Source: an uncultured Caryophanales bacterium (GTDB taxonomy: Bacteria; Bacillota_I; Bacilli_A; RF39; UBA660). Taken from it: DNA of 6,737 nt. The position numbers and the translations under genes were made by a program. Under the pieces are notes generated by a model. It was given only the letters and a program-made list of their open reading frames with translations. It had not been told where the DNA came from and searched no databases. The stretch is from assembly GCA_937897245.1 (NCBI GenBank), contig CALCBO010000101.1, forward strand, positions 1-6,737, read 5' to 3'. The first letter of the stretch is position 1. Each line of letters opens with the position of its first letter. Shown here piece by piece: positions 777-6,737 of the stretch.

Positions 777-800
777 TTAATCTAATAAAGAGGTGGTACT

Positions 801-854
801 ATGGATGGATTAGTATTATTTAATTTAGATGAAATATTTACGATTCAATTATGA
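801..854 (+). CDS. 17-residue leader peptide upstream of the RSH gene
   Basis: ATG at 801 is preceded by a strong Shine-Dalgarno sequence, GAGGTGG at 790-796, at close spacing, and the ORF ends at TGA 852-854. The product would be MDGLVLFNLDEIFTIQL. Seven of 17 residues are branched-chain (four Leu, two Ile, one Val), and all four Leu codons are TTA. The last codons (ACG ATT CAA TTA TGA) form the 5' arm of the intrinsic terminator at 840-875. A ribosome on these codons would therefore prevent the terminator hairpin. This arrangement is what a ribosome-dependent attenuator needs. The ORF is in the same frame as the RSH gene, separated from it by a single in-frame stop and the intervening 12 codons. 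Translation is predicted, not shown. The strong ribosome site and its place right after a good promoter make it more than a random short ORF. Confidence 0.65.
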   Translation: MDGLVLFNLDEIFTIQL

Positions 855-875
855 TTGTATAATTGGGTCGTTTTT
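840..875 (+). terminator. Intrinsic terminator / attenuator inside the RSH leader
   Basis: The arm at 840-852 (acgattcaattat) pairs with 859-871 (ataattgggtcgt) over 13 positions, 11 Watson-Crick and two G-U, around a 6-base loop (853-858). It is followed by a run of five T (871-875). It sits between a strong promoter and the RSH start codon at 891, so termination here would produce only a roughly 90-base leader RNA. The 5' arm is the last part of the 17-codon leader ORF, with its stop codon at the arm/loop border. I found no convincing alternative antiterminator helix by eye in 783-839, so the simplest model is occlusion of the 5' arm by a translating or stalled ribosome. Confidence 0.7.
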
Positions 876-879
876 AAAT

Positions 880-885
880 GGAGGG
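880..885 (+). promoter_or_regulatory. Ribosome binding site that sets the RSH start
   Basis: GGAGGG lies 5 bases before the ATG at 891. This favours 891 over the in-frame TTG at 855, which has no binding site and lies in the loop of the attenuator hairpin. RSH homologues also begin close to this point. Confidence 0.75.
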
Positions 886-890
886 TTATT

Positions 891-6460: not shown

Positions 6461-6497
6461 AAAAAAAGGGAACATTCAGTTTTCTCTAGTTGAATGT
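6461..6497 (-). terminator. Intrinsic terminator of the minus-strand gene
   Basis: Read on the minus strand, acattca (6497-6491) pairs perfectly with tgaatgt (6478-6472) around a 12-base loop, followed by TTCCC and seven T (6467-6461). The stop codon (6478-6476) lies inside the hairpin, so the end of the gene and the terminator overlap. Confidence 0.6.
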
Positions 6498-6737
6498 CTA
6501 CCTAATAAATTTCCAGTGTCTGCGTCAATTATTTCTGCAGCCTTTTTGTCGTAGCCTTCGAGCGGTATAGAGTAGACATTAACAGCGACCCCATGGTTAG
6601 CCAAATCCAAAAGCACATCATAGAATTTTTTGTTATTGAACAAAAAGATAGAGACATCTAAAGTATGAATGCTGTCCTTATTATTCTGGAGCCATCTTGC
6701 AAATGATTTAAAAAAATTCGGAGAAGATCCTAGGTCT
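6476..6737 (-). CDS. C-terminal fragment of an unassigned protein, possibly phospholipase D-like, 5' partial
   Basis: The minus-strand frame is open from the window edge to TGA at 6478-6476 (86 visible residues); the start lies beyond the window. The visible stretch includes FARWLQNNKDSIHTLDVSIF, then LFNNKKFYDVLLDLANHGVA, then VNVYSIPLEGYDKK, ending in GRHSTREN. An alternation of strand (LDVSIFLF), helix (KKFYDVLLDLANHG) and strand (VAVNVYSIPLE) is what the first part of a phospholipase D-type domain looks like. The catalytic HxKxxxxD motif is not in the visible part, and the frame stops about where such a domain would continue. It may be a truncated copy or a different family. Codons such as GAC, GTC, ATC, CTC, GGC and CCG are common here and rare in the neighbouring genes, and GC is about 36%, so it was probably acquired. 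It is convergent with the tRNA. Confidence 0.5.
   Translation of the reverse strand, partial: DLGSSPNFFKSFARWLQNNKDSIHTLDVSIFLFNNKKFYDVLLDLANHGVAVNVYSIPLEGYDKKAAEIIDADTGNLLGRHSTREN

Follow-up and report, generated by a model that had tools for sequence, protein, structure and literature searches.

Why should the gene of an RSH-type alarmone enzyme be preceded by a short ORF that ends inside a terminator hairpin? The question is raised by an A+T-rich bacterial contig of 6,737 nucleotides, which was analyzed over its whole length and is called the window here. An initial annotation of this DNA had proposed ribosome-mediated attenuation as the answer.

A leader ORF and a terminator precede the RSH gene

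Reading of the forward strand places a promoter at positions 748–776, made up of TTGACT (748–753), a 17-nt spacer, and TATAAG (771–776), with the TG of an extended −10 element at 768–769. An automated promoter list missed it because the −10 hexamer ends in G, not T. Promoter-like sites likewise lie 5′ of the leader in relatives, among them L081, L126, L130, and L131 (loci of the set described below), and a loose TTGA...TATA-type pattern lies ahead of the leader at 35 of 50 loci, a raw count taken without a shuffled control; the pattern is 24 to 35 nt 5′ of the leader start in 31 of these and elsewhere in 4.

The promoter is followed by the leader ribosome-binding site AAAGAGGTGG (787–796), an element that forms part of the fixed test described below, and by a leader ORF of 17 codons, MDGLVLFNLDEIFTIQL, which runs from the ATG at 801 to a TGA ending at 854 (801–854). 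Leucine, isoleucine, and valine account for 7 of the 17 residues of its peptide. The stop codon lies inside the hairpin of an intrinsic terminator (840–875), ending 15 nt into the stem, and the 5′ arm of the hairpin consists of the last four sense codons and most of the stop. By pair count and folding, the hairpin has 14 pairs (840–871), three of them G-C; T871 is paired within it, and the unpaired T872–875 come next. With a folding energy of −13.5 kcal/mol (z = −5.3; none of 200 shuffles equally stable), its stability exceeds chance. The full leader (783–890) has a z of −3.0, and 2 of 200 shuffles were as stable. Very similar hairpin sequences occur in L126, L132, L135, L140, and L143. The RSH ribosome-binding site GGAGGG (880–885) and the RSH gene (891–2330, ATG at 891) complete the series; Pfam and alignments to solved Rel proteins identify the product as a short RSH of 479 residues. 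The extended −10 promoter, the leader ORF with its ribosome site, the hairpin with its T run, and the RSH start had all been named in the initial annotation, as had the use of the leader's final codons as the 5′ arm, and all can be read in the window; the hairpin itself stands, with 14 pairs counted rather than the 13 given.

The remainder of the window holds, 3′ of the RSH gene, a frame without a Pfam match, radC, mreC, mreD (its match just under the Pfam cut-off), genes for an M23 and an M50 peptidase, and a tRNA. The protein of positions 2405–2848, encoded between the RSH gene and radC, is about 147 residues long; it has a hydrophobic stretch at its N terminus and no Pfam or NCBIfam match. 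Positions 1–663 encode the C-terminal part of a cysteine-containing protein, which likewise matches neither Pfam nor NCBIfam. At the contig end, a partial frame on the minus strand (6476–6736) has a match to nuclease NucT that scores well under the curated cut-off (E = 0.0065) and is possibly a fragment of a phospholipase D-type nuclease. The gene upstream of the RSH leader in L126, L130, L140, L142, and L143 differs from that in the window, and its last residues are presumably those of a valyl-tRNA synthetase.

The layout recurs before short RSH genes of one bacterial order

The proteins found in a homologue search were at most 61% identical to the window RSH. A profile search of genome contigs with the single RSH protein gave no match, and one with an RSH alignment gave only distant Rel proteins of at most 41% identity. 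In a whole-genome search of one bacterial order, 100 of 288 genomes had an RSH match at E = 1e-100 or better, and many genomes of the order carry a short RSH of about 480 to 500 residues. The closest genome-borne relatives, at 60% identity and lower, occur in a genus of 39 genomes; among the matches listed, 22 of these 39 have both a short RSH (409–529 residues) and a long RelA (at least 660, about 720 residues).

A fixed test was applied to 66 short-RSH loci, comprising the 65 best-match loci (L081–L145) and the window. Its first part required a hairpin with a folding energy of at most −6 kcal/mol and a T run starting 8 to 48 nt 5′ of the gene start; its second part required a leader ORF of 10 to 60 codons, preceded by a ribosome site, whose end lies from 15 nt 5′ to 35 nt 3′ of the start of the stem. 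The terminator was present at 54 of the 66 loci, and 53 passed the full test, including 15 of 23 in the genus set (window included) and 38 of the 43 others. By comparison, none of 28 long RelA paralogues from the same genus passed, and none had a terminator. The background comprised 329 genes of at least 100 codons from a 400-kb part of one member genome; a terminator preceded 43 of them, and 9 passed, including the genome's own RSH. Held-out loci fetched later (n = 40) had the terminator in 29 cases and passed fully in 23. The layout of a ribosome-mediated attenuator, namely a leader ORF with a ribosome site, an intrinsic terminator, and the gene, is present in the window and in many of its relatives, and the coupling of leader ORF and terminator before the RSH gene that had been claimed for the window recurs across the order.

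Failures amounted to 8 of 23 loci in the genus set, 5 of 43 outside it, and 17 of 40 among the held-out loci. In the genus set, L133, L134, L136, L142, L144, and L145 have no leader-terminator on reading, and the other two, L082 and L129, are ambiguous. The test-negative loci L087, L106, L113, and L116 show hairpins by eye and were kept out of the counts. By eye, a 6-codon ORF overlaps the RSH ribosome site in L134, a genus member without a terminator; it is perhaps a remnant or another type of leader.

Leader ORFs end within the terminator hairpin

Removal of three near-duplicates left 50 leaders, which are 16 to 48 codons long with a median of 30; the window leader is the second shortest. 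Because the leader search required an ORF end near the stem, the evidence from stop positions and open frames leans on picking: the leader stop falls within the stem-loop at 43–44 of 50 loci and upstream of it at 6, the ORF of L093 runs past the hairpin, the median stop position is 14 nt past the stem start, and the leader frame is open to the hairpin region at 49 of 50 loci, compared with 2 and 9 of 50 for the other two frames. Held-out leaders stop inside the stem-loop in 19 of 23 cases.

The peptide sequences and the last codons of the leaders vary among loci. The initial annotation had a ribosome pausing on these last codons; what is conserved in relatives is the leader-terminator layout and not the last codons, and nothing here points to a specific pause on them. 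Four leaders (L131, L132, L140, and L143) have in common, by eye, a possible small internal hairpin (AAATCCA...TGGA), and this stretch also encodes a similar peptide segment.

The leader ORF could also be a gene for an ordinary small protein, ended by a terminator of its own, leaving the RSH gene to constant leak-through without regulation. The hairpin would then end the transcript of the small gene, and some of the leader peptides are hydrophobic. However, the peptides vary widely in both length and sequence, the layout recurs before the short RSH and not before the long paralogue, and the RNA pairing and codon placement described below are common to the loci. We regard this explanation as very improbable.

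The short RSH is a predicted alarmone hydrolase

The window RSH contains HD_4, RelA_SpoT, and TGS domains according to Pfam, which gave no match to an ACT domain. His50, His75, Asp76, Glu79, Asp80, Asp144, and Asn148 (window numbering), which we take to be the hydrolase residues of the HD site, are kept in all 66 short RSHs and also in all 8 long RSHs. For the synthetase, Glu323 and Asp264 of RelSeq are called the catalytic residues in an excerpt of PMC7983052. The Glu323 equivalent is present in 8 of 8 long RSHs. In the window this position is Lys323, and among the 65 short RSHs with the column it is Gln in 43, Lys in 20, Arg in 2, and Glu in none. Short RSHs have also lost the histidine that the long form has at 342, and the Asp264 equivalent is retained in 63 of 65. 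Since the hydrolase residues are intact and the catalytic synthetase Glu is lost, the short RSH is probably a hydrolase without synthetase activity, the loss of synthesis being a prediction because of the retained Asp. With a product of the hydrolase type, the switch would control the removal of alarmone.

The combination of intact hydrolase residues and an altered synthetase site is also a feature of SpoT[Hs] and the small alarmone hydrolases, and SpoT proteins that are apparently losing synthetase function are described by Atkinson et al. in the available text of PMC3153485. However, the short RSH, at about 480 residues, is a paralogue in its own right, and it has a TGS domain and no ACT match.

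In-frame enrichment of cysteine codons 5′ of the hairpin

Cysteine makes up 5.8% of leader residues, compared with 0.8% in the comparison proteome. In the region 15 to 60 nt before the stem, which was chosen on the same 50 leaders, Cys codons are 72 of 697 in frame (10.3%) and 37 of 1235 off frame (3.0%; p = 1e-10); by locus, the difference is positive in 35, negative in 7, and zero in 8. At least one Cys codon lies in this region in 38 of the 50 leaders, and none in 12. The held-out loci, which serve as the independent repeat, gave 24 of 322 in frame and 15 of 569 off frame (p = 0.001), with 13 loci positive and 4 negative. Cysteine is not enriched farther upstream than 60 nt (7/386 in frame, 15/622 off frame), in the last 15 nt before the stem (10/227, 24/376), or in the hairpin from 0 to 40 nt (1/173, 10/286), and for the last Cys codon the median distance to the stem is 27 nt (n = 42). 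For the genus set alone, in which a Cys codon occurs in 11 of 15 leaders, the enrichment over the whole leader is borderline (22/342 compared with 22/604 off frame, p = 0.05). Serine shows a second, weaker in-frame enrichment (p = 8e-5; held-out p = 0.05).

Anti-SD pairing was rejected as the full cause of the cysteine bias, since TGY triplets are less frequent off frame and the bias persists at loci where helix P1 (see below) is weak (18/270 compared with 8/466). A frame preference of Cys codons would not be expected from RNA pairing alone.

Charged Leu or Ile tRNA had been put forward earlier as the signal. Isoleucine, leucine, and valine together make up 28% of leader residues, compared with 22% of the comparison proteome. 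However, the region before the hairpin shows no in-frame excess of them: leucine accounts there for 13.6% in frame and 17.0% off frame in the 50 leaders, valine for 3.7% and 5.5%, and isoleucine is outside the nine largest in-frame/off-frame differences; the corresponding held-out values are 14.6 and 15.3 for leucine and 13.7 and 14.4 for isoleucine. That signal is therefore not supported for the locus set. The window leader has zero Cys codons and three TTA codons before the hairpin, and for this leader considered alone, leucine may be the signal.

Predicted pairing of the leader ribosome site with the end of the leader

Folding pointed to pairing between the leader ribosome site and the end of the leader ORF. 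In the window, the minimum-energy and centroid structures contain a candidate helix, P1 (791–821, forward strand), with 11 G-U-rich pairs between 791–801 and 811–821; its 5′ strand corresponds to the ribosome site and the first base of the start codon. At −11.8 kcal/mol, the window duplex is at the 41st percentile of swapped pairs, no better than these controls, and P1 is therefore weak for the window alone. For the locus set, own-locus duplexes have a mean of −13.8 kcal/mol, compared with −10.5 kcal/mol when strands are swapped between loci (0 of 20,000 permutations), and the held-out loci gave −12.2 and −9.6 kcal/mol (again 0 of 20,000). The best P1 scanning window reached a z of −7.8 and was the sole interaction to stand out besides the arm–arm control. 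At only 21 of 50 loci does the late segment rank in the best 10% of partners for the ribosome site of the same locus. Comparison of related loci showed many broken or gapped pairs, with 4, 1, 0, 0, 0, and 0 both-side changes in six small groups. As compensatory changes between related loci are few, it is the swap test that carries P1, and by this test the predicted helix is well supported for the locus set as a whole.

An antiterminator was sought by testing windows along the leader against both terminator arms, and it was rejected: none of these windows paired with an arm more strongly than expected from swapped controls (lowest z −1.2), and the positive control in the same scan, arm against arm, gave a z of −23.5. 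Pairing of the late leader segment with the RSH ribosome site falls below the level of swapped controls (z = +4.0, 50 leaders); such apparent avoidance would keep a read-through transcript translatable.

The presence of P1 at many loci would also suit a riboswitch-like RNA that binds a protein or metabolite, with P1 as the sensor and the ORF as an incidental feature. However, positions 730–900 of the window have no Rfam match up to E = 5, and the leader frames are open into the hairpin. In 20 relative loci, no gathering-level match was found 5′ of the RSH gene, and the only one at all was a T-box 3′ of it (L117, 3028–3238). A T-box, riboswitch, or other known RNA family was rejected as the leader, there being no curated-family match, and the riboswitch-like explanation is hardly credible.

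Proposed mechanism of the RSH leader

We consider it fairly probable that the leader is a pyrBI-like attenuator, in which read-through is controlled by the ribosome and depends on translation, for the predicted alarmone hydrolase. Here, we infer leader translation, the sign of the response, the role of cysteine, and the enzyme activity from the sequence. In the window, the leader RNA made by RNA polymerase would be some 90 nt long. If a ribosome loaded promptly and translated to the stop, it would occupy the 5′ arm of the hairpin, the terminator would be unfolded, and the RSH gene would be transcribed; the leader stops are placed where a finishing ribosome would cover the stem. If no ribosome loaded, the hairpin would fold and transcription would stop. 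In many relatives, the ribosome site paired with the late leader segment would stay closed until a ribosome loads, which agrees with the earlier suggestion that poor initiation could allow termination. A stall upstream, in most relatives perhaps at the Cys codons 15 to 60 nt before the stem, would also lead to termination; because most of these codons lie too far upstream for the ribosome to cover the hairpin, stalling at them should switch the gene off, not on. While translation is running, hydrolase would be made and alarmone would be low, and when translation is blocked, no new hydrolase would be made and alarmone would be allowed to rise.

Work in E. coli bears on the distances involved. 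According to the accessible portion of PMC4824070, moving a stop codon from 28 to 5 bp before a terminator lowered termination from about 90% to less than 10%, the effect of the stop codon on the terminator was gone beyond about 27 nt, and slower translation raises termination in the authors' model. Given the limit of about 27 nt, folding of the hairpin might still be disturbed in part by a ribosome stalled on the Cys codons closest to it. In B. subtilis, RNA polymerase moves faster than the ribosome and leaves it behind, and a polymerase–ribosome architecture has been seen in Mycoplasma pneumoniae (PMC9226507, in excerpt). If the polymerase is ahead of the ribosome here, the model would need pausing.

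In amino acid and antibiotic leaders, a stall usually turns the gene on. The main rival to the reading that we favor, and the model of the initial annotation, applies this logic to the RSH gene: a ribosome paused by starvation or a bound drug would block the hairpin or free an antiterminator, and translational stress would turn the gene on. The geometry of leader and terminator fits, a pause on the last codons would cover the stem (stops at a median of 14 nt inside it), and attenuators of this kind are known in Bacilli, such as vmlR in the available part of PMC9226507. However, the enriched Cys codons lie 15 to 60 nt before the stem and not within it, no antiterminator signal was detected, and the last leader codons are not conserved. 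On this evidence, stall-induced read-through is unlikely.

Nucleotides could be sensed instead, as in pyrBI, with an NTP-set polymerase speed deciding whether the ribosome catches up and with Cys codons only tuning the timing; the sensed pool would perhaps be GTP, which falls when alarmone rises. Both the entry of the leader ORF into the terminator, as in pyrBI (PMC5021804, in excerpt), and the absence of a detectable antiterminator fit such sensing, but it does not by itself predict the frame-specific enrichment of Cys codons, and we judge it quite improbable.

Returning to translation-dependent read-through, we advance a more specific form of it with some doubt. In one order, an attenuator of two helices, free of an antiterminator, may require the ribosome to pass the Cys codons into the terminator, thus licensing a dedicated hydrolase. 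If true, failure of cysteine or of translation raises alarmone by cutting off new hydrolase, and the stringent response has a transcriptional layer in which cysteine is the sentinel amino acid.

Comparison with known attenuators

The control of alarmone is usually described at the level of the enzyme, with Rel sensing the ribosome and tRNA. A cis-acting leader before distantly related copies of one gene would tie the amount of a dedicated hydrolase to translation, and such control would connect both sides of the stringent response. Among the titles and abstract openings listed in searches of open-licence papers, none describes an attenuator of an RSH gene or of a gene for an alarmone hydrolase. 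A paper containing both "leader peptide" and "RSH gene" (PMC6892785) deals, in its available text, with amino acid operons and not with the control of an RSH gene. The excerpted text of a premature-terminator survey of 302 genomes (PMC2965389) does not mention ppGpp or spoT, and "rela" occurs there only within words like "related." The same text lists leader peptides of hisS/hisZ in Firmicutes and presents ermC as a sensor of a general slowing of translation; control by leaders is thus already known beyond Proteobacteria. In B. subtilis, vmlR and bmrCD also combine a short ORF and a terminator in a Bacilli leader; however, vmlR acts via an anti-antiterminator and an antiterminator (PMC9226507, in part), no antiterminator was detected in the RSH leaders, and the RSH gene is no resistance factor.

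Like E. coli pyrBI with its leader peptide pyrL, the RSH system has a leader ORF that extends into the terminator hairpin, both in the window and at 43–44 of 50 loci. Attenuation of pyrBI includes a nucleotide-sensitive polymerase pause in the leader. Tight coupling of translation and transcription prevents the pyrBI terminator hairpin (PMC5021804, in part), and the terminator is described as lying inside the leader peptide in the accessible portion of PMC4824070. However, the RSH system differs from pyrBI in its predicted alarmone hydrolase gene, in the Cys codons enriched before the hairpin, and in a ribosome site that tends to be paired.

The attenuators of trp, his, and similar operons consist of a leader peptide, codons enriched for one amino acid, and an intrinsic terminator before the gene. 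The RSH leaders have the same peptide, one-amino-acid enrichment, and terminator. However, no antiterminator was detected in them, which would make theirs a minimal attenuator design, and their stop usually lies inside the terminator. The enriched codons name a testable signal, cysteine, and the response to it is predicted to be inverted relative to trp and his, with shortage turning off a gene that is not biosynthetic.
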